Of a stretch of DNA of 64,000 nucleotides, positions 488-62,428 are shown one piece after another. Position 1 is the stretch's first letter; each line of letters opens with the position of its first letter. A program made the translations under genes and the position numbers. The notes under the pieces are model-generated. The model was not told where the DNA came from. It saw nothing but the letters and a program-made list of their open reading frames with translations, and did no database searches. The stretch comes from Nymphaea colorata (taxonomy: Eukaryota; Streptophyta; Magnoliopsida; Nymphaeales; Nymphaeaceae): assembly GCF_008831285.2 (NCBI RefSeq), contig NC_045139.1:20936412-21000411 (forward strand), in the 5' to 3' direction.

Positions 488-491
<4 letters not shown>

Positions 492-559: not shown

Positions 560-562
<3 letters not shown>

Positions 563-1300: not shown

Positions 1301-1446
1301 CATATGACAAAAGTTGCAATTGTAATTAGGATTTTGAAGGCATTTCAACAATGTGATTACGCCAATTTAAGCAAAGAAAAAAAAATCAAGCCTTCAAAAG
1401 AACCTAAAACCATAAAAGATATAAAGAATTTATAAATATAGCTTAC

Positions 1447-1647
1447 CTTGCTCTTGTCAAAGCAACATTTGTCATGTTATGGGCAATAAGGAACCCAATA
1501 GAAACTCTGCTATTAGCACGAATAGCAGATACAATAATAACGACCTCTTCACATCCCTCAAATCCATCTATTGACTTGGCACTCACAATAATCTTGCATG
1601 GGACTTGCATCATTGCAACAGTTTGGAGTTGGTAGACCCAACTTGGG
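1447..1647 (-). pseudogene. Exon fragment of an SF1 helicase (UPF1/SEN1-like, AAA_12 region)
   Basis: The minus strand encodes a peptide with two hallmarks of the C-terminal RecA-like lobe of UPF1/SEN1/AQR-type helicases: IDGFEGCEEVVIIV (family form VDGFQGREKDVIIIS) and NVALTRAR (motif VI, with the arginine that contacts ATP). It ends at a consensus donor (AG|GTAAGC at 1445-1446), and a plausible acceptor (TTATGCAG) ends at 1648, giving an exon of 201 bp. The usual glutamine of the DGFQG motif is E and the following R is C, so both conserved residues are altered. No neighbouring helicase exon was recognised on either side. Its place inside a probable CACTA element suggests capture of a host gene piece. 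Function is unlikely. Confidence 0.6.
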
Positions 1648-1682
1648 CTGCATAAGGAGATATGATGCCAACTAAGGTTCAA

Positions 1683-3150
1683 GTTACTGCCAGAAGTAGG
1701 GAATGCTGCAATTTGTAAAGTAGGAAACTGCTACTCGGAAGAAAATGCAACAAAATATGTAATAAAATAAAGGAGAGGAAATACTATAACATGCCAAGAA
1801 ACAGAGCGTGGCTGAAGGTTAGCAGCACTCAGGCAGCAGAGCATTACCCGAAAGATGTCTCTCTTTGCTCGACTAAAGGTTAGCTATGTCAGTCAGTCAA
1901 AGCAGTCTTCCATGCTTTAACTGCAGTAGATCTAATCCCTCGTATAGTCATATTCAAGCTCAAGAGATCTAGTAATGGCCATAAATTGCCTTCATTCATC
2001 ATTCTATATGGTAGCAATGGAAGCCCTGTACCATCTATAATGGCATTGTCCAGATAAAGCCTTCACTGCTGCTCCAAATGAGAGACTACTCAATGAACCA
2101 TCATGTTTAGTACCACCTATAGCACAAATAACTTTGTGCCGCATAACTTGCTACTCGACCCTCAACATTTGTTTCACTATAACCATGAGCTCTTACCAAG
2201 TTCTGTGCTTGGGCATGTAGATTATTTTCCTTGCAATTGAATTGGAGACATTCTCAAGATATGGATGAGCATCTTAGCTACTTACATAAGAAGCATCCAA
2301 TTGTTGTTGCAACGTGGCACACAATTTCAAGCAAACCTACAGCCCAAAGAGGAAAACAAGGTTTTAAACTTGACCATGCTAATTAATTTAAACTTGTTTG
2401 AAGAGAACCAATAAATTCTGATTTAACTTGCTCAAAGCTCCCAAATAAGAGTGCAGACCTTCACATAAACATAAGGAACTGTGAATCATCCTGCCACACT
2501 TTCTTCATCTAACTCTGAATAGATCTAGAGCTTCATGAATTAAGGTTCAACAAAAACAATTAACATAATGAATTCTATCTCTATTAAATTTCATCTGGTA
2601 GTTGCATAAAATTGAACACCAGTCTCTGTCAATCAAAGACCAATAGTATTAGTTTTGCAATTGCGAATAACTGGCAGACCTCATGCAAAAACCCAAGATC
2701 AAAACAACTGGTGAGGGAAACATGAACAAAGGGGTTAGGGCACACAGGAGACAGTGGAGAGGCGGGGTGGAATAAAAGGCTATCTCCATCTTCTGGTAAA
2801 AAAAAAAGGGAAAAGGAACCACTGCATTATGCACATAAAAGGGGGAAAATCGAAAACTTTATGCCATCTCTTACTAGCACATGCGAACCAGCCAGAGGAC
2901 TGCGAGGAACCTTCTGGATGAACGAAATCCATGCTTAGCAAAGAGCTAACAGCGATAGAAGCAAAGAAGAATTAGCAGTGACTGGTGCGGATTAGAACGT
3001 CTCCGACTCGTCTTCCTCTTCCTCCCCTTTGGAAGCTTTGATCTCGAAAAATCCACACGCAGACACAAGAGAGAAATGATGACCGATTGATTTTATTTCC
3101 AGGGCAGGGGGGAGAAGGAATATCTATGGCGGCATGAGGGCTGTGAGTGG
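1683..3150. other. Interior of the CACTA-like element, no gene recognised
   Basis: No convincing coding exon. On the minus strand, 2860-3120 looks like leader and first-exon sequence (an ATG near 2930 followed by about 20 open codons and GTAAGAG), but no known protein is recognisable. Confidence 0.3.
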
Positions 3151-3256
3151 CGATTTTATCTACACAGGTGAATTTTTTTCACCAGTATAGAGCAGTCATC
3201 ACCAAGGACTTGTACCTGGTATTGTCACATCAATATAGTCAGTTTTTTTTGTAGTG

Positions 3257-4297
3257 CAAGCTATTTTTTTTTTCAAGATTTTGAAATACCCTTTGAAGAA
3301 AATAAGAAGTTTGGTTTAAGGAAAACTCAATTATTTTCCTCTTTTCCAAAAAAAAGTGTGATTTCTATATTTGTAACCTGATCAACACTGTTCAATCTCT
3401 TTGGAATCGATGGTTGCGATGATTCGCATCAAGTCAGGTATATGAGATTTTGATGGCTACATTTTTAATAGATAATATATCACCATTGGACATGTCATAG
3501 ACTTTTGACCAGAAAACTTGTGTTCCCTTCCTTGCATATTTTTAAACCTGTGAAAGATGGCCATGCAAAGCTAACCACCAACTGGTCTGAAGACTTACTT
3601 TCCAGTCTTTTACTACATAATATGCTTGTTTATGGTTCCTTGAATAATATGCAAGTTATAAAAAATAAAGAGTGATACTTCATCATCCAAAATTCATGGA
3701 TGAAGATTCCAAACGTGTCAACAATCTATACCACATGTTTTTTTGTGATATTATACTTGTCTAAGATTCCATATTGCAGCATAGTTTGTAAGCCACCTTG
3801 ATTAGCTAGAATACCTATAGGTAGAGTAATTTGTGTATTGTTGCTTATACCTTAAAAGCATGCAGCAATCTTAAAACCCTCCCGGTCAAGCTGCATCCCT
3901 CTAATTCATCCTCTATAATTTGCCAGCCGTATTGAATCAAGATGCTACTCGATCAACCAGAAGAACAATGGGCTTGAATTTCATTTGGCTCAAGTTTGTG
4001 CAACTACAACAAACTCTTCTCTTTAGTGATAGCTTGCTTAACATATGAGATTTTGGAAAATTTCCTCATATTTATGAAAAATTTTAATTTTAGTCTATAG
4101 TTACAATTCAAGGGCTAAGAATCTTTTACTTCATGCATATCAGTGTACTATGAAAAATTTAAGAAAATATTGGCACTTCAAGATATAGAAAATGAAAACA
4201 CAAATTTCGAATACCACTCGGTATCATCCCCTTGAAATTTATTCACATCAAATGAAAAAATTACGAAAGAAAATCAATGAAAGAATAAAAGAAAAAA
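3257..4297. other. Intergenic, nothing recognised
   Basis: AT-rich DNA with frequent stops in all frames. No gene, tRNA or repeat boundary was seen between the CACTA-like terminus and copia-1. Confidence 0.6.
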
Positions 4298-4593
4298 TGG
4301 TAGAAAAAATATCAAAATATAGAATAAGCCAAGATTTTACGTGGTTTGGTAATTCAGACCTACATCCATGAGAGACAACTCCACACCTCGTGTGATTTTT
4401 TTTTATTGATGGTATGCACAAAAGTTATACATAATAAAAGGTTGCAGTCCCATTGAGGAACGCACAGAAGCTCTTTACAAGGAAATATACACCATCAAGA
4501 AAAATCTTTACGGAAACTTATAAGCTTCTAAAGAAGAATGACCTCCAAAAATCAACGGGTGGGAGATAAAATAGGCAACCTCTATTTTCAACA
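4298..4593 (-). repeat. 3' LTR of copia-1
   Basis: About 296 bp, reading TGTTGAAAAT...CTACCA on the minus strand. It aligns with 8942-9248 with many substitutions and a few short indels, so the insertion is not recent. Confidence 0.85.
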
Positions 4594-4608
4594 CTTCCTT
4601 TCAAGTGG
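4594..4608 (-). other. Polypurine tract of copia-1
   Basis: On the minus strand a TTGAAAGGAAG run sits directly before the TG of the 3' LTR, where plus-strand DNA synthesis is primed in copia elements. Confidence 0.6.
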
Positions 4609-4688
4609 GGTGTAGATATTTGTACATCCCCACTTGCTCAATATTTTATGATGTAATTCTCGAGTCAAACCCTTAGTAAGTTCATTTG

Positions 4689-4961
4689 CTAGCTGTTCTG
4701 AACTTCTGGTGTAGGGGTCGATATTTTACCTTTTTGAACTTTCTCACGATCATAGTGATAATCTATTTCTTTATGCTTGGTTCTTTCGTGAAAATCTGAA
4801 TTTGTTGCAATATGGATAGCAGCCTGATTATCACAATGTAAAGGCATAGGGAGATTTACCTGTAGCCCAATTTTTGAAATAGGGGTTTTAATCCATGTAA
4901 GTTCACTAGTTGTTGTAGTTGTAGCTCGATATTTTGCTGCAGCACTAGATCTAGACACCAC
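4689..4961 (-). pseudogene. copia-1 RNase H remnant
   Basis: The segment shows SSAAAKYRA (family form SS.EAEY.A), CDNQAAIHIA and ERTKHKEIDYHY..REKVQKG, all typical of the copia RNase H domain that removes RNA from the RNA/DNA hybrid. The acidic residue of AEY is replaced by K, and the reading ends early by frame disruption. It is contiguous with the upstream RT fragments in the expected order and cannot work alone. Confidence 0.85.
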
Positions 4962-5391
4962 ACTTATTTTTTACTTTTCAAAGACAATATTTCCTCCAAC
5001 AAGCACATAATAACCAGTTGTAGATTTTTTATTGAACTACCTATCTAATATGCATCGGTGAATCTATGCATTTGATGATGACCACTCATTTTGTACCATA
5101 TACCTTGTCATGGAGTTCATTTTAAGTATTGTAGAATGTGATTAACAATTTTTCAATGATGTTTTGTAGGTGCATGCATACACTGACTAGTTATACTAAC
5201 TGACTAGCTATACTAACTGCATAGGTTATGTCTGATCTAGTAATGGTCAAGTTATATAAGCTTTCCTACTAGTCGTTGGTAGCCTTCCTTGTTACAGACA
5301 TGGTCATATTGAACAACTTCAATTTTTTGTCTAACTTCAATTGGTGTCTCTACTGGCTTGCACCCAATTTTTTCTACATTTTTAAGTAAGT

Positions 5392-6183
5392 TTAAGGTAT
5401 ATTTTCGTTCAGAGAGCAAAAGACCCTTGAGTGAGCAATTTCAATGCTAAAAAAGTAACAAATTTTTTTCAAATCGTTTATGTCAAAAGCATTGTGAAGC
5501 AATTCTATAATTCTTAAGATCGTTTCTTCATAAGTCTCTGTTATGATAATGTCGTCCACATATACTAGCACGATAATCAGATTATCATTCTTCTGTTTGA
5601 CAAATAAAAAGTTGTTAGCATTGCTTCTTAAAAAACCATGTTGTTCTAAAAAATTACTCAACTGGTAGTGCCGTGCTCTCAAAGATTGTTTCAAACCATA
5701 GATTGCCTTGTGAAGCCTGCATACCAATTTTTTGTTAGCTTCTTGAGGATGTTCGGGAGGAAGATTCATGTACACTTCTTCTTTCAAGTCTTCTTACAGA
5801 AATGTGTTTTTAACATCCAATTGATATAAGGGCCAATTACAATTACATGCAACAGATAATATCACCCTAATATTGTTCATTTTTGCTATAGGCACAAAGG
5901 TCTCTTCATAATCTAAGCCTTGAGTCTGTGTATATCCCTTTACTACAAGTTTGGCCTTATATCTTTCAATACTCACATTGCTTTTGTATTTTATTTTAAG
6001 CACCCAATGACACCCAACTGCATTTTTTTTAGGAGGTAGTGTGACAATATCCCAGGTTTTGTTTTTATGTAAAGTACAAAGTTCTTCATCCATGGCCTTT
6101 ATCCAAATCGAGTCTCTCTTGGCTTCTTCATATGTAGTTGTCTTTGAGCAATTAGAGACTCTCAATGTATACGCTCTATGCAT
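5392..6183 (-). pseudogene. copia-1 reverse transcriptase, two broken segments
   Basis: Segment 5794-6183 holds the RVT_2 N-terminal part: W..AM.EEL..L..N.TWD.V.LP, then GCHWVLKIKYK, ERYKAKLVVKGYTQ and DYEETFVPIAKM. Segment 5392-5787 continues with LKQSLRARHYQL and the catalytic YVDDIIIT box (YVDD supplies two metal-binding aspartates). A stop or frameshift near 5790 separates them, and downstream sequence towards RNase H is also interrupted. This places RT after integrase, the copia order. Confidence 0.88.
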
Positions 6184-6615
6184 GTAGTTAATCTTTTTGT
6201 GTCCAACATAATGCTCTATAGGATAATTTGTAGAAGTATACGTGATGTAATATGATAACCAGGTAGGTGGCCTAATTTGTCACTTTGATCTTTTCATTGT
6301 GATTTGGAGTCATTTTGGTTAGCAATAACTGCAGTAGTTTGGGTATCGATCTGATGGTCTGGAACTGCAATATCAGTATTAGTCTCTTAAAATACTTCTG
6401 GTGAATTTTGGCTTCTTCTTATGATTGTAAATTCATTGTAAGAACCAGTAGTTGAACGCAATCTCCCCTGGAAAGCAAGTCTCACCAAGAATGTTAGATG
6501 TGGGGGGGAGGGATTTTCCTCCATAATATGATTGTCTGGTATTGGATGATGGAATTAAGGTGTGCTTTCATCAAACATAACACCTCTTGATATAACGAGA
6601 CGCTTTTCTTTTATA

Positions 6616-6840
6616 CTATAGCATTAGTATCCTTTTTGAGAGACAAAGTACCCTAAAAAGATACATTTGAGAGTGACTACTAAGTTCGTTTATGTTTTGT
6701 CGCTGCCTAGATACAAAAACAACACATCCAAATGCTCGCATGTGATTTAAACTGAGCTTAGGTCCCTTTAGAATTTCAAGGGAGGTGCGATCCTGAACAT
6801 TTTTACTAGGCAATCGGTTAATAATATAACATGCATTCAT
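6616..6840 (-). pseudogene. copia-1 integrase C-terminal remnant
   Basis: MNACYIINRLPSKNV..RTSLEILKG and LNHMRAFGCVVFVSRQRQ match the segment after the integrase core in copia polyproteins (A..Y.INR.PS, then R.FGC..YV). It is short and closed by stops. Confidence 0.8.
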
Positions 6841-7061
6841 GACGGCATCACTCTAATAAATCTTAGGGACATTTATTTGGAATAACAAAGTACGAGTAAC
6901 TTCAAGAAGATGCCTTTTCTCTCGGCAACTCTATTTTGTTGAGGAGTGCCCACAAAAGTGAATTGGTGATCAATACCACACCATTTTTCAAAAAAATCAA
7001 ATTTAATATTTTTATATTTGGAACCATTATCAGTCATTAAGATTTTAATTTGTTTCCCATA

Positions 7062-7823
7062 CTAATTTTTTACCATATTATAAAACGTTTGAAATTGATC
7101 AAAAACTTCATCTTTAAATTTGAGCAAATAAATCCAAGTAACCTTTAAAAAACCATCTACAAATGCAACATAATACCAAAAACCAGAGTATGAAACTACA
7201 GGGGTTGGACCCCACACGTCAAAATGAACCAAATCAAATGAGTTTTCAGCATTAGTATCAAATTTCAAAAAAGGAGGTCTACTCATCTTAGCATAGTGAC
7301 ACACATCACATGTTTGACAATCATAATAATATGTAGGAAATAAACTATTCAGTTTGTAGCTAGAAGGGTGGCCTAATCTTTTGTGCCACAATGAGCTATC
7401 AAGTCTAGCAACCATGACTTTACTTTCTTGCTCCAGCACATACAATCCCTTAGCTAATCTTTCCTTACCAATCATCTTCTTCGACAATCTGCCCTGAAAC
7501 ACCACATCATTAGGTGAGAATATAATATTACAATTCAAATCCTTAGTGAACTTAAAAACTGATAGCAAATTTGTAGATAGACTAGGAACAACCAAAGCAT
7601 TGATATTTTGCTCACAATAAAAAAGATGAACATTACTAATATCTTTTACTTTTACCTTTGATCTATCAGCAAAAATCACATAGTTATTTCCATGCACACT
7701 TTTAATATTTGATTGATCTATAATTGAAGTGCACATGTGTTTGCTTGCACCGGAATCAATATTCCAATCATAGTGAGTAGAAATCACACCTGAAGTATTT
7801 GGACTAGCAGCCGAAGCAACCAT
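7062..7823 (-). pseudogene. copia-1 protease, GAG-pre-integrase and integrase N-terminus
   Basis: A 253-residue open segment. It begins with the aspartic protease motif WNIDSGASKHMC (active-site DSG), continues to the GAG-pre-integrase signature SLWHKRLGHPSSYKL, then C..C.YAKMSRPPF (the zinc-binding HHCC region) and the start of the integrase core FDLVHFDVWGP, where the first catalytic D lies. It stops before the second aspartate. This is the best preserved coding part of copia-1. Confidence 0.88.
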
Positions 7824-7935
7824 AGCAGTTGTTTCATTTTGTTTGCAAACACTTTGTAGAAGTTTTGTAATAGTTTTCAGTTGAGCAGCTACGTTAATAT
7901 TTTCTATAGCAGTGACTTGGGTTGTTGTAGTAGAT

Positions 7936-8852
7936 TCATTTGATCAATGAATCTGAGATGGGATAGCTTCCCATACAATGTCCAACACCTCTCACGGGTA
8001 TGTCCATCCTTCTTCCAATAAGTATAGGCAAACTTGCTATGATTTTGGTTTCTGGATTTATTTCCAAGCAAGTCATGACTATCTTTTTTCCCATCATGGC
8101 AGCAAAGGCAGTGGTATTGGTGGTAGTATATGTTGCCTTCTTTGAACCTTCACCCAATGAAATTACTTGTGGCTTGTGTTGATCTGAGTTCATGACAAGA
8201 CTACGAGTTTCTTCTCTTATGAGCATAGACAAGATATTGTTAACCGAGGGTAATTCCAGTGGGAGAAGGATTTGACTTCAATGATGTTCAAAGTCATTTT
8301 CAAAACCAGCAAGAAGTTGAAAGGCTTTCTATGTTCTCTAAGCCTTTTAGATGGGGCGTTATCCGGGTAAGCCATGGTACATAGATCATATTTATCCCAT
8401 AAATGTTTCTTTTTTACCATAGTAATCAATGATGTGAAGATCCTCTTTCTTTAGACTATGGATTTGGCAAGACGATTGGTGCATACGAGCCACATTATTT
8501 TGTTCACCAAACATTTATTTGGCATTAATTCATATGTCACAAGTAGTAGTAGCAAGCGTAAAATTTTCAGCTATTTTTTATTCCATGGAATTTAAGAGCC
8601 ACGATATAACCATGTTGTTGGCCGATTTCCATTCCTTAGCATCATGAATTTCTGGTTTAGCAATTTCTCCATTAACATATCTGAGTTTCGATCTACCGTT
8701 AAGATAGGAAGAAACAAATTTTGATCTGAATTTCGATCTACAGTTAAGATAGGAAGAAACAAATTTTGACCAACACTAATAATTTCTTCCATATGGCAAG
8801 ATAGAAGTGATATTAAAACTTGGTACCTGTTTTTGAACAAGTATTCATTCAA
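7936..8852 (-). pseudogene. copia-1 gag remnant
   Basis: Several short minus-strand segments lie between the primer-binding site and protease, where gag belongs. They carry weak capsid-like sequence and no clear CCHC knuckle. The reading frame changes at least twice. Assignment rests mainly on position. Confidence 0.5.
8681..8770. repeat. 45-bp tandem duplication inside copia-1 gag
   Basis: Units 8681-8725 and 8726-8770 are adjacent and differ at about three positions. The unit is a multiple of three, so it duplicates 15 residues (SDQNLFLPILTVDRN) without changing frame. Confidence 0.92.
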
Positions 8853-29984: not shown

Positions 29985-30916
29985 GTGTATGACGAGGAGT
30001 GGAGTCCCTTTGATGATTGCTGTGTTTTCTTTATTTTTGGTAGCTTGCTGATGTTTGTGTGTTATTTTCACATTGGGCATGTAGGTAACACTACTCAAAA
30101 GATAAAAGGAGTTGGGCAGCTGAACACTATTTGAGAAGATGATCATGATTTACTTATGGCAGATAGCTTCCTGCCTACTAGGGGAATCCAACCACTTGTT
30201 TAGGATAGGATGATCCCATATTTAGCCTTGAGCAAGTCTTAGGAGGGAGATGGGAGATTGGTCAACAGGCTCGCTTAGTTTAAATATGGTGGAGTATTTC
30301 TTCCAACTAAGATGCAATGACCTACTTATTTATTGTGGATGGCATAATCAGAAATCCAGACAATCACCTTTTTTTTTGTTTTTAGCTTAGATCTGGAAGG
30401 ATATTCACAGACGAAACATCTTCCATAAGGATGATACAAACTCTACTATTTGCTAGCAATAACAAGGTTAGGACTTAGGAGCTGTGGTGTTTGCATCGTG
30501 TTTTTATTACAATAGTTACAGTATTAGGCTATTAGCATGGTCATGGGCTGCTTTGGTATGATAAGGTGTGAATGTAATGGTGTAGGTGTTAGCCAGTCTT
30601 GACTATAAATGTGGCTTCTGTAGCTTCTTGATAGAATTGAGAGCATATTAGGACTTGGTGCTAGAGAAGAGGCTTTTGGGAGAAATTCCCATCTTTTGGA
30701 ATTTGGAAGGTCAGATTAATTATAACTGATTTTCTCAATGTTGCTTGATTTATAATTTGAAAGTACCCTTTTCTATGCTGTAAAATCGATAGTTTCTTTT
30801 TGTGATAAGTTTATGTATAACTGTGTAATGTTTTAGATTGTTTTTATATAATCCATGCTTCTAGTAGGCTTTATCTCAAACAGGATTCACTAATTTTTTG
30901 TTGTTTTCCTGCACAG
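26809..30916 (+). other. 4.1-kb intron of the F-box gene
   Basis: GT at 26809 and AG at 30915-30916 bound the intron. It is T-rich on the sense strand and contains a (CT)n tract at 29924-29977. Two related segments near 28785-28880 and 28993-29080 share GGTGGATACAAATT-like and CATTGCTACTCTAGTGA blocks. No nested gene or recognisable transposon was seen. Confidence 0.82.
29924..29977. repeat. (CT)n microsatellite in the F-box intron
   Basis: Uninterrupted CT dinucleotide tract of about 54 bp. Confidence 0.97.
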
Positions 30917-32132
30917 ATGGTGCTTTATTAGCTTAGATAGTGGTTCAAACAGTGAAGGTCACTATAAAATGATAAAAGGAGTGAAGTCGGAGGTAATGAA
31001 GCCCGGTGAAGCAAAGGGCCCACCGTCCAAGAAAGCACGAAGAGACAAGAACCATGAGATTGTTATGGACGAGAACATCTGGAAAGAATTTCCAGAGGAT
31101 TTGTTTGAAGTTGTTATTGCAAGGTTGCCTGTTGCCACCTTTTTCCGGTTCCGTTCTGTCTGCCGCAAGTGGAACTCCTTACTCTCATCGCATAGTTTCT
31201 CACAGCAGTGTGCTCAAGTCCAGCAACCTTGTCCTTGGTTTTACACCATAACCCACGAGAACACTAACAGTGGAGCTATGTACAACCCTTTGCTAAAGAA
31301 ATGGCATCACCCTCTCATGCCTGCCTTCCCCGCAAAAGGAATTGTTCTTCCAGTGACCTCAGCTGGTGGCCTGGTTTGCTTTCTTGATATTGGTCACAGA
31401 AACTTCTTTGTCTGCAATCCACTAACACAGTCTTTCAAGGCTTTGCCTTCAAGGTCTGTTCGTGATTGGTCGCGTCTTGCAGTTGGCATGACTCTGACTG
31501 CAGAATCTACTGAAAGTGGATACAAGATCATGTGGCTAGAAGCAAACGGAGATTATGAAGTCTATGACTCTGTTAGTAACAGTTGGACACGTCCAGGAAG
31601 TTTGCCTTCTTGTGTCAAGCTTCCTCTTGATTTGAACTTCCGCTCTCAGACTGTTTCTGTTGGCAGAGTTCTCTATTTCATGCGTTCCAGTCCAGATGGC
31701 CTTGTCACCTACAACATGGAGAGCCATGTGTGGCGGCAATTTAGCATTCCACTTCCACCGCACTCAAATGACCATACGCTGGCAGAATGCAGCAGTCGTA
31801 TCATGCTTGTTGGCTTGTTGACTAAGAATGCAGCAACGTGTGTGTGCATATGGGAGCTTCAGAAGATGACCCTTTTGTGGAAGGAGGTTGACAGAATGCC
31901 AAATATGATGTGCTTAGAGTTTTATGGCAAGCAGGTGCGTATGACGAGCTTGGGTAACAAGGACCTTCTTTTGCTGTCATTGCGCTCTAAGCAGATGAAT
32001 CGCCTGGTTCTCTATGACATCTCAAACAAAAAGTGGACGAAAGTGCCAGGATGCATGCTTCCTCGAGGTCGGAAGAGGCAGTGGATAGCTTGCGGTACGT
32101 CTTTTGTGCCATGTAGAACTGCTGCTGCTTGA
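30917..32132 (+). CDS. F-box protein (At5g15710-like), coding exon 2
   Basis: The exon holds 404 codons, up to TGA at 32130-32132. A basic stretch KKARRD, a possible nuclear signal, precedes the F-box EFPEDLFEVVIARLPVATFF...RKWNSLL at about residues 95-135 of the 446-aa protein. F-boxes bind SKP1 and so link the protein to an SCF ubiquitin ligase. The rest resembles the kelch-like F-box-associated repeats: WFYTITHEN, SAGGLVCFLDIGHRNFFVCN, YEVYDSVSNSWTRPGS, LLTKNAATCVCIWELQKMTL and the end PRGRKRQWIACGTSF. These match the Arabidopsis At5g15710 family closely. The substrate is unknown. The gene stands alone, with no lesion seen. Confidence 0.95.
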
Positions 32133-40433: not shown

Positions 40434-41135
40434 TCAGCATTCAATAACGTTAAAGTGAGGTTGTCTCGACACAAAATCCCATGTTTCATTTTTGTAAAGA
40501 GCATCCATCTCGCTTTTCATAGCATCAACCCAGTTGTGGTCTTGTTGGGTCTCTTTTAGAGAGGTAGGTTCAGTTTCAGAAGTGGTTTGGGTCAAGTAAG
40601 TGAAGACTCTAGACTGTCGGGTTCCATCTTGGGATCTTGTTACCATGTGATGGGACCTAGTGGGCTCAACTAATTGGTTGTTAGGTTCATCATTGGAGGG
40701 AGACTCAAAAGAATTAGAACCAGTTTGGACAACTGAGGAACTTGGGGGGTTAGGAATGCTTCTGGGCAACTCAATAAGAGGTGAACTCTCTTTTGGCTTG
40801 TCAATAGGTCTAGGTTCAATGTACTTAGATATGGATGATTCTAGCCACATTGAAATATTTGAGGGAGTAATAGAGGGACCACAATGAGAATATAAAAAAC
40901 TTCTTTCATCAGATCTAACATGTCTAGATATGATTACACTGTTGGAGACTGGATTGTAGCAGATGTAACCTTTATGACAGCTTTCATAGCCAAGGAAGAC
41001 ACAGACTTGAGCTTTGGGTTCTAATTTGGAAGCACGTCTAGGCCCACTCAAAGGATAGATAGTACATCCAAAGGTTCTTATATGATTATATTTTGGAGCT
41101 TCATGCAAGAGCTTCTCATACAGTGTCATTTGCAA
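40434..41135 (-). pseudogene. copia-3 integrase C-terminus and RT start
   Basis: The open segment shows LHEAPKYNHIRTFGC..YPL, KLEPKAQVCVFLGYESCHKGY (the conserved F.GY...KGY block after the integrase core), a serine/proline-rich linker HHMVTRSQDGTRQ, and then DHNWVDAMKSEMDALYKNETWDF at the RT entry. It ends at a stop near 40434. Confidence 0.88.
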
Positions 41136-41303
41136 GTCTGCAATAGGGAACTTGTTAATAAGATGAACAACTGTTTTAAAAGCATCAAACTAGAATTTTT
41201 GTGGCATATTGGCATGAATAATCATGGTAAGTCTCATCTCCACCAGATGTCTAAGTTTCATTTCTACTATGACATTCTGCTGAGATGTGTAAGGACATGT
41301 TAT

Positions 41304-48692: not shown

Positions 48693-49398
48693 TATAAGAA
48701 CTAAAACATAACCTACAATCACAAAATTGAATAAAGTAGCGAAGATCAAGCCATTCCCTAATTAACAGGAAACTGTCAAAAAATGTGGCAAACTAGGAGA
48801 TAAAGGAACTTGTACTATAACAAGTGATACCGATGACTTGGGACTCAACTCGACTCGTTCGTTCTTGACTCGTGACTTGGGCGGGGCTTCGTTAACTATT
48901 ATTTTAAAAGAAAAACAATATATAAAAATTGTCATTTAAATATAAAAAAGTTGTAAAATGACTTCAATACATGCATAATTCATACCATCAAGCTATAACT
49001 AAGTTACATTACCTCTTTTGATAACAAGAAATTGATAATAAGGTCTATAAGAACTCAAACATAACCTACAATCACAAAATTGAATAAAGTAGCGAAGATC
49101 AAGCCATTCCCTGATTAACAGGAAACTGTCAAAAAATGTGGCAAACTAGGAGATAAAGGAACTTGTACTATAACAAGTGATACCGATGACTTGGGACTCG
49201 TCTCGACTCGTTCGTTCTTGACTCGTGACTTGGGCGGTGCTTTGTTAACTATTATTTTAAAAGAAAAGCAATATATAAAAATTGTCATTTAAATATAAAA
49301 AAGTTGTAAAATGACTTCAATACATGCATAATTCATACCATCAAGCTATAACTAAGTTACATTATCTCTTTTGATAACAAGAAATTGATAATAAGGTC
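48693..49398. repeat. 353-bp tandem duplication
   Basis: Copies 48693-49045 and 49046-49398 differ at only about eight positions (roughly 2%). Each includes a GACTCG-rich block (GACTCGACTCGTTCG region) and an AT-rich block. Confidence 0.93.
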
Positions 49399-49892
49399 TA
49401 TAATTGCATTTTTCAAAGAAAACTGTATGGCAAGAAACAATATATCAACAAAAAACAAGTCAATAAAAATCAAACACTAAGATTAACACATTCAATATTT
49501 ACAACTATCTAATGGTTAACAAATCCGATATACATGTTAATGTGATATAAAACTAAAATCCAAAAGTAAAGCGTCCCATGTTCTAAAACTTAATACACCG
49601 TACAAGAAGTTAAACCTAATTAATTTTACCTTTTCATTTGTAATATATAAAGTTAATAAATGAACAATAATTCTGAATTCTTATATTTCGACAAGTTAGA
49701 AGATTTATGTCAAAATTTAAGTAATTAATAAACAAATGACCATGTTAATTACAAAATACAATATTTATCACTGGACTACACCAAATCAAATGACTTTTAG
49801 CCAAGTCAAACAGAGTTTCAGCCGAGTCATGACCAAGTCATGCCGAGTTTGACAAAAACCGAGTCGCCTGACTTGACGAGGTTTTAAACACT
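48830..49892. repeat. Possible decayed DNA transposon with GACTCG-type ends
   Basis: GACTTGGGACTC...GACTCG words at the left (near 48836 and again near 49189) are mirrored by GCCGAGTCATGACCAAGTCA and ACCGAGTCGCCTGACTTGAC words at 49820-49880. This resembles the subterminal arrays of plant hAT elements. No clean terminal repeat or 8-bp duplication was found. Confidence 0.3.
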
Positions 49893-53609: not shown

Positions 53610-53670
53610 GCCGTGCCCTCGTACCTAAGTTTTTTGAAAGTAGTCTGTACCCGTACCCATGTGACATAGG

Positions 53671-54118
53671 TGTTAAACAATAAGGTTTTCGGATCCTTCA
53701 TCTGGATCCAAAATCCAGCACGTTGAAGAAAAGTCTCTTAGGATTCCACATTCTTGTAAATTGTGTTAAGATATTTAATATCCTTGTAATATGTGAAGAG
53801 TCTCTTAGGATTCTACGTTCTTGTAAACTGTGTTAAGGTATTTAATGTCCTTGTAATATGTGAAGAGTCTCTTAGGATTCTACGTTCTTGTAAACTGTGT
53901 TAAGGTATTTAATGTCCTTGTAATATGTGAAGAGTCTCTTAGGATTCTATGATTGAAGACTCTTAGAATTCTGGAATTGAAATTATAAATAGGGGCCAAG
54001 CAGACCATCCTGGTCACAGCTTCTTCTCATCAGCTTCTTCTTGTTTTCATTTTTTCTCTCTATCTTTCTGCGTGAATGTTGTTTTCTGGTTTCAAATATT
54101 GGTGCTAGATTTCTGTCA
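53671..54118 (+). repeat. 5' LTR of copia-2 with internal repeats
   Basis: 448 bp against 313 bp for the 3' LTR. The excess (about 135 bp) equals two extra copies of a 67-68-bp unit containing AAGAGTCTCTTAGGATTCTA and CTTGTAATATGTG. The first seven bases also exist at 52510-52516, left of the nested element. TATAAATA lies at 53984-53991. Confidence 0.9.
53984..53991 (+). promoter_or_regulatory. TATA box in the copia-2 5' LTR
   Basis: TATAAATAGGGG about 130 bp before the LTR end, conserved at 62294-62301 in the 3' LTR. Position suits the U3/R promoter of a copia element. Confidence 0.65.
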
Positions 54119-54130
54119 TGGTATCAGAGC
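54119..54130 (+). promoter_or_regulatory. Primer-binding site of copia-2
   Basis: TGGTATCAGAGC immediately follows the CA end of the 5' LTR and is complementary to initiator Met-tRNA. Confidence 0.93.
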
Positions 54131-54337
54131 TAGGTTACGTTATCTCTACCTAACAAAATGCCCCAACAGGTTTGATCTGGTTAGAACTCTTTTCTCATCT
54201 TGTCTTTATCCTGATTTTACTTTTCTTTTGCGTAATTCTTGTTCCTTTTTCTTCTTGCTTAACAAAGGACACATCTTGTTATATCGTGCCTTCTTTCCCT
54301 CTCATCTTCTATCTGCATACCCTTCCTTTCTGTTGTC

Positions 54338-55230
54338 ATGGAAAACCTTTCGCATTCTGGTATGTCCTCAAATTTTCTTCCTCACCTTTTACCGAAAAAC
54401 TCAACCATGAGAATTATCTAACCACGAAAAGGCAGATCATGCCTTTTATAAGAAGTCAAGGCCTTTTTGGACATCTCGATGGTTCAACAAGGGTTCCACC
54501 AATGTCTGTTCTGCATGAAATAGAGAATGAGGCAGGAGCGGTCATTGTTGTTCAAGAAGATAGCAACCCTCAACATGTTGTGTGGATGAGACGTGACCAA
54601 AGTCTGGTTGCATATATTTTGTCTACTCTATCTCAACAAGTGTTACTTTCAGTTTCTGATGACTGTATTGCAGAAGAATTATGGGAAACCCTAAGTGATA
54701 CATTTTCCCAAATATCAGAAACTCGGATTATGTACTTAAAAAAAGAATTTCAGAATTTGAACAAAGGTTCGACATCTATCATGGATTATTTGGGGCGTAA
54801 TAAGGCTGTCGCAAACCAACTTGCTGCCTCAGGGAATAACATTTCTGATAAAAAGAAGGTGCAACAAACTTTAAGTGGACTTGAGCATGATTATCATTTT
54901 TTATTACAGCTCTTGAGGTCCTTCCTGTTCTGCCTTCCTTCAACGAATTACAAGGTAAACTTCTCCAACACGAAATGAATATGAAAAGAGTCATTGAAAG
55001 GACTGATCAAGGGAACTCCCAAAATGTGTTGGCCATAAATGTAAAATTTGGTCAAAACCATGGGAACTCTAATCAAGGTGGTCGCGGCATTCTACCGACA
55101 CCAAATAACTAAAGTATGTCATTTGAATACTTCAAGAAGGATACCAGTTTGTTTTCAATATAACAAGAAAAGGCACATGAAGGCACAACGCTGGTTTAAT
55201 CCTCAAAATAAAAACAAAGGGGTAAGAGTG
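54338..55230 (+). pseudogene. copia-2 gag
   Basis: A natural start is ATG at 54338 (MENLSHSG), but the frame shifts within about 25 codons. The main body then reads LNHENYLTTKRQIMPFIRSQ, VAYILSTLSQQVLLSV, ELWETLSDTFSQISETRIMY and GSTSIMDYLG, the UBN2-type capsid. A further shift near 54950 leads to a degenerate zinc knuckle (CFQYNKKRHMKAQ, missing the last cysteine) near 55150-55195. Not functional as read. Confidence 0.85.
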
Positions 55231-55299
55231 TAAGACATGATTACAAACAAGGAGGACAAAATTCTAAATCCACCGACGAAGATATGCAGCAGCTATTGA

Positions 55300-56621
55300 T
55301 GGCCGCTTTCTCAAAAATGACTACAAAGCAAAATGAACGAGGAGAATGGTTCTTAGATTCAGGTGCAGCTGCTCATATGACAGGAAACTGCAGGTAAATT
55401 GACTAACTTATCCCCTCATTATGGTATAAATTGCATTATAACGGGTGATGGAAAATCTCATCCCATTACACACATTGGAAATGCACATATTCCATTGTCA
55501 TCTTCCTCTCTATCAGTGTCTAATGTTGTTCTTGCTCCCAACATCAAAAAGAACATCATATCCATTTCTAAACTCATTGATGATACAAACTCTTCTATTG
55601 AATTCACACCTTCTTCTGTCTATGTCAAAGACCTCCAAACGAAGAAAATGTTCGCTAAAGGGGAGTGTCAAGAGAATATGTATGTCTTCAAGGAATGTCT
55701 ACTAAGGATTCGTCCACCTTTGGTATAGGATTGAAGACATTTTCTCTTTCTCATAATGCGTCACCAACTTCAAGTTCTTGCCATTTCCAATCAAAAGTAT
55801 GGGGCTCTAACCAATTTTTGGAGTCTGATCTGTGGCATAATCGACTGGGACACTGTGGTCGACATTTTATTGAAAAACTTGTCACATATAGCCTCATTCC
55901 AAGATCAAGCTTACCTCTTACTTCAAGTGTCAAAAAATGTTCAAGTTGTGAACTTTGTAAGAGTCATGTTTTACCTTTCCATAATATAAATCAAAGGGCT
56001 TCCAAACCTTTTGAAATTATTTTTTCTGATGTTTGGGCGCACCTATTGATTCCATGTCTAGTTCACGATATTATGTTTTATTTATTGACTTACTCACATT
56101 TCACCTGGATTTACTTCATGAAACACAAATCAGAAGCACTCTACATATTTCGAAACTTCTATGCCATGATTCAAACCAAATTTTCATACAATGTGGTGCA
56201 TTTTCAATGTGATGGTGGGGGAGAATATTCCTCACTTGATTTTATTGAATTTCTACGTGAAAAAGGGATAACTAGACAAATCTCCTGCCCTTACACACCA
56301 CAACAAAATGGTGTAGTTGAGCGAAAACATCACCATATAGTTGAAATCGCCATGAGCATGATGCATGATACTAATGTGCCTATTTTCTTATGGACTAAAG
56401 CCTTCCATACAGTATACATAATAAATTGTTTGCCTATAACACTCTTGATGTCTAAATCGCCATATTTCACACTCTTATGCAAACAACCTGATTATAAGAA
56501 ATTGAAGGTTTTTGGCTGTGTATACTATGTTTACGTTGATGCTGCCTTGAGGAACAAGTTTCAAGACAAAACTATTCAATGTAGATTCGTTGGATATGCT
56601 GATGAATATAAAGGCTTTTGA
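55300..56621 (+). pseudogene. copia-2 protease, GAG-pre-integrase and integrase
   Basis: The aspartic protease motif WFLDSGAAAHMTG has its DSG at 55356-55364. Segment 55399-55728 continues with SVSNVVLAPNIKKNIISISK. Segment 55665-56621 holds DLWHNRLGHCG, CELCKSHVLPF (zinc-binding region), FEIIFSDVWAH with the first catalytic D, HFQCDGGGEYSSLDF with the second, and YTPQQNGVVERKHHHIVE with the catalytic E. The integrase triad is therefore present in one frame. Frame changes at about 55385 and 55700 separate it from protease. Confidence 0.9.
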
Positions 56622-57111
56622 TGTTATGATCCAACAACTAACCGTATCAAGACTTCAAGAAATGTTACTTTTGATGAACATAGTTTTTGATGACACTAAT
56701 GAAATGCCTATGACCATTGAATCTTATGATCCTTGGACCAGTACACAGTTATTCAATGCAGATCCTATTTCAGAAAATAATGTGCCTCAATGTGAAGATC
56801 GAGAGAGATCAATACAGTCATCGAATGTGACCCAAAGTGAAAATCAAGAGGATCCAACACAGTCATCAAGTCATCATGAAAGTAATAATGAAGAACAGAG
56901 CAACAATTCACATCGGTATTCGGGTCTTATCTACAGTCGACGACTAACGAACAGAGATGCTCACAGTGAAGAAGACATCATGCCCCACCTTAGAAGCTCC
57001 CAACGCATTCGCCATCCTATTCACAGGTGGGTTAGCTATGATTCTTTATCACTTGATTTTCAATTATTCGTGGCAAAAGTCGGCAAGGGAGGAAGAACCT
57101 ACGTCATTTGA
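56590..57111 (+). pseudogene. copia-2 linker between integrase and RT
   Basis: Polar, Ser/Asn/Gln-rich sequence ending with an RSSQRIRHPIHRWVSY motif, typical of the variable spacer before RT in copia polyproteins. It is in a different frame from the integrase. Confidence 0.75.
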
Positions 57112-57172
57112 TCAAACATCAAAATCACATCATTGGAGAAAGGCTATGAGAAGAAATAGATGCCTTGCATGA

Positions 57173-57617
57173 ATGTGGAACATGGGAGATCGTTCCAAGG
57201 CCACATGGAAAGAACGTAATGGGCTCCAGTGGGTACACAAAATCAAATACAAACCTGACGGCAGCATAGAAAGACACAAAGCAAGGTTACTAGCAAAAGG
57301 GTTTACTCAACAGTTTGGGCATGATTATGATGAGACGTTCAGTTTCGTAATCAAAATGGGAACCATTCGCGTAATTATATCCCTTAAAATATGGGTGGAA
57401 GCTAAATCAATTAGACGTTAAAAATGTCTTCCTTCAAGGTAACTTGAAGGAAAAAGTTTTCATGGAGCAACCTCTTGGCTTTGTTGAAAAGGATTCTAGC
57501 GAATGGGTTTGCAAACTGAAAAAATCTCTATATAGACTTAAGCAAGCATCACGGTCATGGTTTGATAGTTTTTCAAACAAAATTAGGGAATACGAATTTC
57601 GAAACAGTCCTCTCAAC
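57173..57617 (+). pseudogene. copia-2 reverse transcriptase, 5' half
   Basis: [51 protein letters not shown] and CKLKKSLYRLKQASRSWFDS mark the first half of the RVT_2 domain. Small frame changes lie near 57400-57440. The frame is then cut at codon level by the hAT element starting at 57618. Confidence 0.9.
57610..57617. repeat. Target duplication of the hAT element, left copy
   Basis: CTCTCAAC, identical to 61084-61091. Confidence 0.95.
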
Positions 57618-57627
57618 CAATGTTATC

Positions 57628-57712
57628 ACTGCCGTATCGTATCGTGTATCGGTCGGGCCGACCTATATGTCGTATCGTAACGTATCGTAAATGTATCGTA
57701 ACGTATTGTAAA
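57628..57712. repeat. Left subterminal GTATCG array of the hAT element
   Basis: CGTATCG/GTATCGTAACG words recur about eight times. Such short subterminal repeats are transposase-binding sites in hAT elements such as Ac. Confidence 0.85.
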
Positions 57713-58180
57713 ATTAATTTTTTAATTTGTAAAAAATATTAAAAAATTATAAAAAATAGAATAAAAATCAGAAAAATTCTAAAAAAATTCGAAAAAACTA
57801 GTAAAAATCAGAAAAATTCAAGAAAAATGTATTTAAAGGAACATTCATCATTCATGTATATGAAGTATGACCTATGAAGTATGCATATGAACAAGACATT
57901 ACAAAATAAGAAATCAAACATTCAAAAAACAAAATAACATACTAAGCAACCTAAGAGGCTAAGCGTATTCAATTACATCACAATTCATAAGTTCAGAAGT
58001 CAAAACTCAAAACATATTGACATAGTTTTCAAAACTCAAAACAAAAAGCATCGTCAATCGTCATTTGCATCATCATCTTCATTCTTTATCATCATCTTCA
58101 TTTTCTTCATTAACTGCTTCTTCTATCCCCTCTGTTGCAAATGGAATGTCACCAACATCCCATTGCTGCCCCCCAGCCTC
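57713..58180. other. hAT element, 3' flank of the transposase gene
   Basis: A-rich non-coding DNA (many AAAAATT words), probably the 3' untranslated region of the transposase gene. Confidence 0.5.
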
Positions 58181-58352
58181 TCATTCATCAATAATCTCTG
58201 CTGCTCCTTCAACGTTCAAAAAATCAAGATCGTCCTCATCAAGTATTGCAGATGGTTCTTCTTCAACCCAAGAATCTAATATATCAAAATGGTCAATGAA
58301 GATAGGATCATATTGATTGTGATGCTTCCTCATAGATGTTGTTTGTAGTTGC
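58181..58352 (-). CDS. hAT transposase, exon 3
   Basis: After an acceptor (TTGTTAG at 58353-58359), the exon completes an arginine codon and reads QLQTTSMRKHHNQYDPIFID followed by an acidic stretch (EEEPSAILDEDDLDFLN), ending IIDE and a stop at 58181-58183. Acidic tails of this type end many DUF659 hAT transposases. Without splicing, the protein would stop at 58429 just after LRQR. Confidence 0.78.
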
Positions 58353-58432
58353 CTAACAAGAGAAAAATTTAACAAATTGTTAGAGATTAAAATATATATT
58401 AGAATTTGCTATTTTGTATAACAAATATTTAC
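58353..58432 (-). other. Transposase intron 2 (80 bp)
   Basis: Donor AAAG|GTAAAT at 58432-58431 and acceptor TTAG at 58354-58353, with T-rich sequence before the acceptor. Confidence 0.78.
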
Positions 58433-58637
58433 CTTTGTCTCAACTTCATATAATAACGAACGTAAACAAGGTCATTCAACCTTTTATGTTCCAACCTATT
58501 CCTCTTCTTACTGTGGATGTGTTGAAATACACTCCTATTTCTTTCACATCCAGTTGCACTACATGTTTGGCTTAGGATTCTAATTGCAAGCTTCCTTAAT
58601 TCTGGGCAATCAGGCCCAAACCTTTCCCACCACAAAT
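58433..58637 (-). CDS. hAT transposase, exon 2 (dimerisation domain)
   Basis: It encodes LWWERFGPDCPELRKLAIRI followed by LSQTCSATGCERNRSVFQHI and LNDLVYVRYYMKLRQR. This is the hAT C-terminal dimerisation domain (Dimer_Tnp_hAT): the WW, the S..C.A..CERN.S block and the NR....L..LVYV.YN.. helix are diagnostic. The domain allows multimerisation and is needed for transposition. The exon begins in phase so that CCA AAT TTG TGG TGG reads through the junction. Confidence 0.88.
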
Positions 58638-58742
58638 CTAATAACAGATGGAAAGTAAAAATGTTGTCAGAATAAATATGTGAGAAGGTAGAATAAAAGC
58701 TAAACAACAAAAAAAAAAGTATAAAGTCTCTTTTTCCAATAC
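58638..58742 (-). other. Transposase intron 1 (105 bp, in frame)
   Basis: GT at 58742-58741 (CCAA|GTATTG) and AG at 58639-58638 (TTATTAG|ATTTG). The segment is T-rich, a multiple of three and free of stops. If unspliced it would insert 35 mostly hydrophobic residues just before the WW of the dimerisation domain. Confidence 0.8.
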
Positions 58743-60594
58743 TTGGACGCATAGTTGTCCTGCATCTAACTGTTGTGTCTCTCGCCATGGTACCAAAAGC
58801 CGTATCATATTTGTTGATCGACATATGGATAGCGTCTTGTTCTTTACTATCACTTACTAATACATCAATACAATCCAACATGCCATACTCGACCTCTCTG
58901 TCCTTCTTAAAAGTGGGAAGATATCTAATAGCAGGATTTAGGTAGTAGGCTGCTGCATGAAGTGGGCGATGAAGTTGTCCAGACCACCTTTCATCTATAA
59001 TCTTCCATATAGGCATGTACAACTTCTTTTTCCCCTTCATATTATCTCTAATGGCCTCCTTGGCTCTGTCCATAGACTCATATAAATATCCAATAGAAGG
59101 TCTATCTTCACTATCAACTAATCTGAGGACTTTCACTAGAAGTACATAAATCTTCAATAAGTGCACACATGATTCCCAAAAGTCAGCATCGAAGATGGTA
59201 TCCACAACTGTCGTAGCCTTTCTTTTATAGGCATGTGGATATGCAGCCCAATCATCACTTGAAAACATTTGCCTGAGAGAAGTTCTTTGCTTGACTATAC
59301 CCTGCACAGTCAAAACATTTGTAGCAAACTGTGTTTGTGCAGGTCGAATCAATTCAGCCCCATTTGTGAATTTCCTCATCAAATTCAAGACATAAGCATG
59401 ATTATAAATAAACTTCGTAATTTCTTGGCATCTATGAACTGTCAACTTCATATCATCTCTTTCACCAAGATCCTGAAGCATAAGATTTACACAGTGAGCA
59501 GCACATGGGCTCCAATAAAATGTCCCATATCGTGCTCCTAACATTTCACCTGTAGTTTTATAATTTGCTGCATTATCAGTGATAAATTGTACGACATTTT
59601 CAAGCCCAACTTCTTCTACAACTTTATCAAAAACCCCAAACAACACATCAGCAGTCTTAGGAGTATCAAACAAATCAACAGATTTTAAGAACATAGTACC
59701 AAGAGGGCAATATACAAAGAAGTTTACCAATGTTCTGTTCTTGATGTCTGTCCAACCATCTACCATTACACTGCATCCTGTAGCTTTCCAGCTCAATTTT
59801 AGTTCATCACAATATATCTTCACATCTCTAACTATATTGTTGAGAATTTTACCTCGCAATTTATGAAAAGAGGGCATTTTATACCCTCGCTCTGCACTAG
59901 CAATCGCATCTGCTATAGGCTGATAATGATAAGAGTTTGCTGCATTGACGAGAATGGATGCATCATAGAACCACCTTCCTATGGTTTCATCTGCTGCTTC
60001 AATAATATCCTTTGGTTGCATGGCTATACGAATCTCAGGCTGAGCACTAGCAACAGTATAATTGGGAAAAAAATTCTTGATCAAACCAGACATATTGCTC
60101 GACCTTATAGTAGGTACTCTACCACCACCAGTACGACCACTATGACTCCTGCCACGTCCTCGTGAAACTGAACTTATATTTGCACCTCTTCTTTTTCTGG
60201 TTGCAGTTGCAAAAGAACCACCTCCACGCATGATGCCTTTCCCTTTAGCTGTTCCCAAACTGACACCAACATTTTCTTCTTCAAGCTGAACATCTTCACC
60301 TTCACTTTCTTCCTCTTCATGTGGGTCCCCATATCCTTCCTCTACATCTTCCATTTCCTTTTCACTTGCCTTCACTGCATCAAGAAGCTCCTGACACTGG
60401 TGCTTTACATACGCTGGCAATGGGTTCTCTTGGGAGCCATTGCATTGAGCCACATCGCTGTGTGTACCAGCTATATGGTGTTTAAAGCGAGAGATCCCTC
60501 CTGATATGATTTGCTTACAATAATTGCACTTAACTCTTAATCTATCTTTGGGATTCACCCTTGTACACCACTGCCATGCAGGATCCGACATCAT
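58743..60594 (-). CDS. hAT transposase, exon 1 (BED finger and DUF659)
   Basis: The start chosen is the ATG at 60594-60592 (MMSDPAWQWC). The frame runs 17 codons further upstream, but only from a TTG. A BED-type zinc finger follows at about residues 20-45: VKCNYC...FKHHIAGTH, which binds DNA. An acidic stretch and a Gly/Arg-rich linker (RGRGRSHSGRTGGG) precede the DUF659/RNase H-like core: CSVMVDGWTDIKNRTLVNF (first catalytic D), QFITDNAANYKTTG (second D) and WSPCAAHCVNLMLQDLG. With exons 2 and 3 the protein is 742 aa, normal for the family. No stop or frameshift was seen. It cuts and pastes the element via its terminal repeats in the nucleus. Confidence 0.92.
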
Positions 60595-60910
60595 ATCTTC
60601 ACAAAACAAGTAAAAACATACAAATAAATGTAGGAAATAAGACAAACGAATGATTCAACGGTAAAAATGACTTATTTCTTACCTTCTTGGTGTTAAAAAC
60701 CAAAAAACCCTCTTTTTCCAAGCTTCCCACCGTCCCAAGACTCCCCACAACGAGAAAGAAAGCTTCTTCACCGGCAAATCTTGATGCAATGGAGAAAATC
60801 TCTCCCTCCCACGTCTCTAGCAGCGTTGAGAAACAAGAAAAGAGAGAGAGAGGAGTGTCTGTTTCAAAATAAGATGCAAAAAAAGGGGCCCTCGAGCCCC
60901 TATTTTAATT
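60595..60910 (-). promoter_or_regulatory. hAT element 5' region of the transposase gene
   Basis: Non-coding DNA between the transposase start and the right subterminal array, expected to hold promoter and leader. It has an AGAGAGAGAG tract near 60842. A splice acceptor just before the start is possible, since AAG/AT sequence precedes the ATG. Confidence 0.4.
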
Positions 60911-61083
60911 TCACGCCCGTATCGTGCGATACGGGGGTGTATCGCACGTATCGCACGATACGTACGATACGCGTACGATACGTACGCGTATCATATTTAA
61001 ACAGTGTATCGTATAGGTTTTCTTAACCTATACGATACGTATCGTACGATACGCATCCGTATCGTACGATACGGATAACATTG
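60911..61083. repeat. Right subterminal array and terminal repeat of the hAT element
   Basis: GTATCG/CGATAC/GTACGATACG words recur more than a dozen times in both orientations, forming nested palindromes such as CGTATCGTACGATACG. The array ends GATAACATTG at 61083. Confidence 0.9.
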
Positions 61084-61091
61084 CTCTCAAC
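61084..61091. repeat. Target duplication of the hAT element, right copy
   Basis: CTCTCAAC, identical to 57610-57617. Confidence 0.95.
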
Positions 61092-62100
61092 CATTCCCTT
61101 TTTATTTTCAAGAAAGAAAATGCTATTACCATCCTCCTTATATATGTTGATGACATCATCATTACAAGGAGCTCAGAAAAACACTTTGATGAGATAAAGG
61201 GTCTGTTAATGAGAAACTTTAAGATGAATGATCTTGGAAGTCTGCGATATTTTCTTGGGGTTGAAATTGATAGGTAAGGAGATCATCTTACCTTGACACA
61301 ACAAAAATATACTCTTGACCTATTGGACAGAACATGCATGATAGGTTGTAAACCTGCTGAAACACCGAGCGTTCTGAACCAAAGGATGAGTATAAATGAT
61401 GGGGAAACATATAAAGACCCCACCAAATATCGCAGCATTGTTGGTGCTTTGCAATACTTAACATTTACCAGACCTGATATTACCTATGCGGTAAATCAAG
61501 TGTCTCAATTTATGCATGCACCAAGGGACATACATATGAATGCAGTTAAAAGGATACTATGGTATCTCAAGGGAACTGTTGGAGATGGATTAATGTATTG
61601 TAAAAGTGAAAATGAAGCTGTTGATCATGAATTAATCACATATACTGATGCTGATTGGGCTGGAGATCCAGACGAAAGAAGATCTATCTCTGGTTTTTGC
61701 ATTTTTATAGGCAAAAATTTGATATCTTGGAGTAGTAGAAAACAAAGAGCAATTGCAAGATCAAGTACAGAAGCTGAATACAGATGTATGGCTACGGGGA
61801 CGGTAGAAGTGACTTGGATTCAACACTTGCTAGAAGATATAGGAGAAAAAAATTAAAAGTTCAGTACTAATGTGTGACAAGCAAAGCGCTATCAACATTG
61901 TTTTCAATCCTATACAACATTTCTGAACAAAACACATTGAGATTGACCAGCATTTTATCAGGCAGAAGGTGGAGAATAAAGAGATAGAACCAGTCTTCGT
62001 TGGAACTAATGAACAAGCTGCTGACATATTTACTAAAGGATTGACAAAGTATCGTTTCTGGTTTTTGAAGAGCAAGTTGTTCATGGTTCAAAACCATGCA
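61092..62100 (+). pseudogene. copia-2 reverse transcriptase 3' half and RNase H
   Basis: The catalytic LIYVDDIIITRS lies near 61138-61175, then MNDLGSLRYFLGVEID. A single in-frame TAA at 61275-61277 interrupts an otherwise open frame to 61856: KYTLDLLDRT, YRSIVGALQYLTFTRPDITY, YTDADWAGDPDERRSISGFC (RNase H catalytic D) and SSTEAEYRCMATGT. After 61856 a frameshift and a TGA precede the final TKHIEID and EQAADIFTKGL motifs. Apart from the hAT insert, these few lesions would each inactivate the polyprotein. Confidence 0.92.
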
Positions 62101-62104
62101 CAGC

Positions 62105-62115
62105 TTGAGGGAGGG
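62105..62115 (+). other. Polypurine tract of copia-2
   Basis: TTGAGGGAGGG directly precedes the TG of the 3' LTR. Confidence 0.88.
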
Positions 62116-62428
62116 TGTTAAACAATAACGTTTTCGGATCCTTCATCTGGATCCAAAATCCAGCACGTTGAAGAAGAGTCTCTTAGGATTCCACATTCTT
62201 GTAAACTGTATTAAGATATTTAATGTCCTTGTAATATGTGAAGAGTCTCTTAGGATTCTACGATTGAAGACTCTTAGAATTCTGGATTGAAATTATAAAT
62301 AGGGGCCGAGCAGACCATCTTGGTCACGGCTTCTTCTCCTGAGCTTCTTCTTGTTTTCATTCTTTCTCTCTATCTTCCTGCGTGAATGCTGTTTTTTGGT
62401 TTCAAATATTGGTGCTAGATTTCTATCA
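62116..62428 (+). repeat. 3' LTR of copia-2
   Basis: 313 bp, TGTTAAACAA...TTTCTATCA, with one copy of the 67-68-bp unit that is multiplied in the 5' LTR. TATAAATA at 62294-62301. Confidence 0.94.

Follow-up and report, generated by a model that had tools for sequence, protein, structure and literature searches.

Plant transposons of the hAT superfamily include Ac/Ds, Tam3, Tag1 and nDart/aDart. The element described here lies in a 64-kb stretch of Nymphaea colorata DNA (the window). With the plant hAT superfamily it shares an 8-bp target site duplication (TSD), short terminal inverted repeats (TIRs), subterminal repeats, a BED finger, a D-D-E core, a C-terminal dimerisation region and the occurrence of short derivatives. 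Different from other plant hATs, its family has the TIR CAATGTTATC, CGTATCG-type subterminal motifs and a DUF659-type core. The start of the TIR resembles what we take to be the TIR of Arabidopsis Tag1. CAATG agrees with the hAT TIR pattern [T/C]A[A/G]NG given in section 3.3 of a plant hAT survey (PMC6027215); the longer pattern of that survey, [T/C]AGNGNNG, does not fit the family TIR, which has A, not G, at positions 3 and 8.

In section 3.4 of the same survey (PMC6027215), R463, [W/F]464 and E719 (Ac numbering) are named, along with the two D of the D-D-E set, among the essential residues of the transposase; [F/W]722 (Ac numbering), the aromatic residue three positions past the catalytic E, is given as invariant. 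Hermes (PDB 6dww, 8edg, 4d1q and 2bw3) is a distant relative. One sister protein of the present family aligns with Hermes over the catalytic domain (best E 7.1e-7), and the D, D, CxxH, R-aromatic and E motifs line up; compared to Hermes, the plant protein is longer (774–778 aa in complete copies) and has an acidic C-terminal tail. In rice, nDart1 and aDart1 form a plant hAT pair, in which the autonomous element moves the non-autonomous one (PMC4585910). Different from this pair, the movement of the present family is deduced from its sequences alone. Among the matches listed, a word search of the literature gave no description of the family, which does not show that the family is unpublished, and the 20 titles listed among 722 matches to the TIR letters pointed to no transposon of this kind. 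As argued below, the copy in the window is probably a defective member of a young, ordinary hAT family.

Element boundaries and insertion site

The element occupies positions 57618–61083 of the window and is 3,466 bp in length, its exact limits being set by the TSD and the TIRs. It is flanked by two direct repeats of CTCTCAAC, at 57610–57617 on the left and 61084–61091 on the right. The left TIR is located at 57618–57627 on the plus strand; at the other end, the element closes in GATAACATTG (61074–61083, minus strand), and the two 10-bp repeats match perfectly. Next to the TIRs are two subterminal arrays. The left one (57630–57712) contains CGTATCG-type motifs, four of them exact, and the right one (60917–61076), which is partly palindromic, contains 11 exact CGTATCG motifs in both orientations. 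Within the 64-kb window, 15 of the 16 CGTATCG sites fall in the two element ends, compared to 0.69 sites per window expected from shuffles. The identical 8-bp duplications, perfect 10-bp terminal repeats and dense subterminal arrays described in an earlier, sequence-only reading of this DNA were thus all recovered.

The hAT element sits in a copia-like retrotransposon, which was recognized by its LTR pair and the domains of its upstream ORF and runs on the plus strand, LTR to LTR, from approximately 53669 to 62428. The LTRs are located at about 53,669–54,118 and 62,114–62,428; in their main block, 15 of 256 ungapped positions differ, corresponding to ∼3% per LTR. The LTRs are also unequal in length, the difference amounting to about two 67-bp units: the 5′ LTR contains a tandem array of 3.3 copies and the 3′ LTR has fewer. 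The ORF upstream of the hAT element (55659–56618) matches gag_pre-integrs, rve and SH3_retrovirus in Pfam; the ORF downstream (61278–61853) matches no Pfam family at E 0.001. Reading of the sequence places the hAT element within what appears to be the reverse-transcriptase region, and the reverse-transcriptase and copia labels come from the same reading. When the flanks are joined with one copy of the duplication, the reading frame is continuous across the site.

The host element has relatives in the window's own genome. Forty of 604 candidates were scored, so the number of matches is a lower bound, and ten of the 39 other matches listed were fetched. The site is uninterrupted in all ten. Together with the 8-bp duplication, these empty sites, which the sequence-only reading had proposed to look for, show that the window copy, a member of a cut-and-paste DNA transposon family, inserted into the copia-like element. 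All ten relatives read CTCTCGAC at the site, whereas both duplications in the window read CTCTCAAC; thus, one base probably changed in the host copy before the insertion. The LTR divergence of ∼3% per LTR, set against the 2.04% terminal branch of the hAT copy, fits the earlier proposal that the retrotransposon is the older element. The insertion would have been carried out by a transposase from the source copy or from a sister element, which, as known from hAT biology, presumably recognized the TIRs and the subterminal repeats.

Other features were observed elsewhere in the window. Copia-type polyprotein remnants are present on the minus strand at 7062–7943 (Pol_BBD and gag_pre-integrs in Pfam) and 40434–41189 (SH3_retrovirus). 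The single-frame ORF at 30894–32132 (412 aa) has F-box and Kelch/KIB1-4 matches and is likely an F-box/kelch gene. At 48693–49403, one 353-bp unit occurs twice in tandem with 97% matches.

Family copies in the genome

Dozens of copies of the hAT family are present in the genome to which the window belongs (408 Mb, 783 contigs), among them near-identical ones (96% identical by BLAST). The sequence-only reading had suggested this check too, with a threshold of about 95%, and on this point the outcome favors that reading. The counts are lower bounds, as 40 of 1,484 candidates were scored; in another search of the genome, 40 of 355 candidates were scored, and those counts are lower bounds too. The copy set analyzed contains 38 members: the window copy, 31 full-length or near-full-length copies and six copies added later. 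L029, L040 and L042–L047, which are partial, rearranged or deleted, stand outside the alignment, as do the outer copies that are interrupted by an insertion in L016 and L018. The ends of L026 are clipped by the extent of the BLAST match.

Identical 10-bp ends on both sides were found in 31 of the 32 copies of the first set and in all 14 copies of a later set. Perfect 8-bp TSDs flank 29 of 32 and 14 of 14 copies, respectively. Since the same 10-bp ends recur with different perfect duplications, a chance origin of the TSD and TIRs in the window was rejected. The 8-mers flanking L041 have one mismatch in eight positions. L009 is full-length with good TIRs, and its flanking 8-mers differ at four of eight positions; this copy is possibly rearranged or recombined.

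The genome was also searched with the family ends. Allowing up to three mismatches, 175 occurrences of the left 27-base end were found; for the right end, at up to two mismatches, the number was 328. The reversed-pattern control gave zero in both cases. Pairing of 100 listed left ends and 100 listed right ends yielded 44 pairs, of which 24 are 3.0–3.6 kb apart, 17 are shorter than 1.2 kb, two are in between and one is 3.8 kb. The 3.8-kb pair consists of the outer end of a nested copy and the end of the inner copy. Among the listed ends, 19 pairs are shorter than 3 kb; eight of these, plus L047, were covered. Seven of the eight short derivatives read are fusions of two or three end pieces from the long element. 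The members of one 793-bp derivative group are 98.6–98.7% alike, and one pair of 970-bp derivatives is 99.4% alike. L071, a 1,537-bp derivative with a perfect TSD, contains ∼0.8 kb between its end pieces that does not match the long element and may have been captured or be of older origin.

Two nested self-insertions were found, in L016 (inner copy at 3425–6888) and L018 (inner copy at 449–3930). Both inner copies sit in the first 350 bp of the outer family copy, and 8 bp of the outer sequence are cleanly duplicated on either side of each. Complete ORFs of 774–778 aa are present in 11 of the 37 other copies, none of them among the six later ones, and ten of these 11 complete copies keep every signature residue checked. 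L015, L019, L020 and L032 are otherwise open; in these four copies a G run is one base shorter, the tail is altered and the ORF ends at 759–761 aa. The shared shorter run may have arisen by repeated slippage or may reflect a fault in the assembly.

Transposase gene of the window copy and its private changes

The transposase gene is located on the minus strand and, as the sequence-only reading had proposed, contains three exons with GT/AG introns. Starting from the family ATG, exon 1 (58743–60591) encodes the BED finger and the DUF659 core and contains residue 421. Exon 2 (58433–58637) encodes the hAT dimerisation region with the catalytic E and contains residue 651. Exon 3 (58181–58352) closes in a stop that is absent from the 31 other copies compared. 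Intron 1 (58638–58742) is 105 bp and intron 2 (58353–58432) is 80 bp in length, both GT-AG. Being a multiple of three, intron 1 of the window copy is open in frame; retention of this intron as coding sequence was rejected, as the intron is 101–109 bp in the 31 other copies and is a multiple of three in 6 but not in 25 of them. Intron 2 is 80–86 bp in the same copies. The BED finger, DUF659 core and dimerisation domain named in the sequence-only reading all lie above the Pfam cut-off in the unspliced open frame (zf-BED, E 1.8e-6; DUF659, E 2.9e-54; Dimer_Tnp_hAT, PF05699, E 4.2e-11). The reported ORF length of 742 aa counts from an ATG that is private to the window copy. All 31 others read ATA ATG there; the family ORF therefore starts one codon later, and the ORF of the window copy is 741 aa.

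Alignment to the relatives revealed three private changes at family-conserved positions of this ORF. First, a stop codon closes the frame after residue 741, at a place where the 31 other copies compared all lack one; the ORF is thereby 33–37 residues shorter than the 11 complete ORFs, and the acidic C-terminal tail is missing. Second, residue 421 is Q in the window copy alone, compared to R in 35 and W in two of the 37 other full-length copies; one of the two, L035, is an otherwise complete copy. Third, residue 651 is R in the window copy alone, compared to W in 36 of the 37, the remaining one having a stop. To place these residues, the sister protein was aligned to the full-length Hermes chain (8edg) and residues were counted: 421 maps to Hermes R318 and 651 to the aromatic residue three positions past Hermes E572. 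The D, D and E of the superfamily, taken to be D278, D339 and E648 from the alignment of the sister protein with Hermes, are present in the window copy, and C363, H366 and F422 are kept as well. What it lacks is the complete transposase expected of an autonomous hAT copy, with an R-[W/F] motif and an aromatic at E+3 (Q421, R651, early stop). The element had been described as intact and possibly active, with no visible lesion. For the window copy this description is not supported on alignment to the relatives: the early stop and the two changes at conserved positions of the catalytic domain are probably disabling, which is the kind of finding that the sequence-only reading had itself named as refuting it.

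The lesions could instead be sequencing or assembly errors. We regard this as very improbable, because the 37 private substitutions and the terminal branch of 2.0% fit an aged copy, and because each lesion is a single-base substitution rather than an indel in a homopolymer run.

In the coding region, with the count ending one codon short of the early stop, the private changes of the window copy comprise 6 synonymous, 16 nonsynonymous and 0 stop changes, against 5.6, 15.2 and 1.2 expected without selection. These numbers fit neutral decay. They also bear on whether the gene was domesticated by the host and kept for a function other than transposition. Being the least broken member of its clade of eight, the window copy might invite such an explanation, but a ratio of 6:16 against the expected 5.6:15.2 fits neutrality, the terminal repeats and the duplication are still present, and the gene is located inside a retrotransposon. 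Domestication, rejected on the neutral pattern of the private changes, is the most improbable of the alternatives considered.

In the maximum-likelihood tree of the 38 copies, the window copy falls in this clade of eight (support 100); in its other seven members, stops or frameshifts leave ORFs of 57–285 aa. All 11 complete ORFs belong to a sister clade of 28 copies (support 100). The terminal branch of the window copy is 0.0204. Its nearest relative differs by 3.3% among the 31 others and by 107 substitutions (∼3.1%) in the 38-copy alignment, and the six later copies fall outside its clade.

It could still be argued that the window copy is autonomous, with Q421 and R651 tolerated and the tail dispensable. 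The long open frame, the splice sites, the D/D/E and CxxH residues and both intact ends are in favor of this. Being acidic and lying beyond the regions that Pfam matches, the lost tail may indeed be dispensable. In addition, a broken motif is no proof of lost function, as a transposase can do without a conserved aromatic of its active site: according to PMC4763223, Kat1 with W576A, a change of the aromatic equivalent to Hermes W319, still performs cleavage and switching. In the family itself, the otherwise complete L035 has W in place of R at 421. However, three private changes at family-conserved positions, the neutral pattern of the private changes and the lack of any recent daughter among the copies read (the nearest at 3.3%, or ∼3.1%, and the six later copies outside the clade) render autonomy improbable, though less so than either error or domestication. 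Given the three changes together with the private pattern without selection, by far the most probable interpretation is that the copy is dead, its transposase most likely being non-functional. After insertion, the window copy would have decayed without selection, losing the R of the R-[W/F] motif, the aromatic residue three positions past the catalytic E and the C-terminal tail. Its intact ends could probably still be moved by an enzyme supplied from elsewhere.

Selection, age and mobility of the family

The coding changes of the family were divided by how many copies share them. Among changes common to at least three copies, 40 of 79 are synonymous compared to 20.7 expected (p ∼3e-6 by a simple binomial ignoring linkage). 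Singleton changes over all copies match neutrality, with 80 of 320 synonymous and 75.6 expected. In the young clade, 16 of 27 shared changes are synonymous (6.8 expected) and so are 37 of 176 singletons (38.7 expected). The 11 complete copies give 12 of 21 for changes shared by at least two copies (5.6 expected) and 11 of 53 for singletons (12.4 expected). The simplest account, which is also the usual one, would be that lineages multiply mainly while their transposase works and that inserted copies then decay, with the family persisting through its younger clade. In two rice genomes, most recently moved full-size DNA transposons have defective transposase ORFs, the few exceptions including one hAT, according to PMC4423477.

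The closest pairs counted in the sister clade of 28, gaps aside, are L017/L019 with two substitutions, L018/L031 with three and L034/L037 with four; among these three pairs, both ORFs are complete only in L034/L037. Plant neutral rates are ∼0.7–1.3e-8 per site per year. At such rates, the window copy would have landed about 1.5–3 million years ago and the youngest family pairs would be less than 0.1 million years old, both dates being rough because of methylation.

Taken together, these observations make it highly probable that the hAT copy in the window has decayed since its insertion into the copia-like element and that its own enzyme is dead. The nesting seen by the sequence-only reading survives, and its view of an intact, possibly active copy does not. 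Recent mobility of the family, in a younger clade other than that of the window copy, is supported by the 11 complete ORFs, the pairs separated by 2–4 substitutions, the nested self-insertions and the derivatives with perfect TSDs. Chances are about even that the family still jumps today and that the host could hold a native active autonomous/non-autonomous system, as judged from the 11 complete-looking copies, the four substitutions between L034 and L037 and the derivatives that are 98.6–99.4% alike.

A transposon that looks perfect in one window can thus prove dead once its sister copies are read. The family provides a clear example of selection on spreading lineages, with shared changes rich in synonymous ones and singletons that look neutral. 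It is the family, rather than the window copy, that would merit a trial as a native tool for tagging in the host plant.
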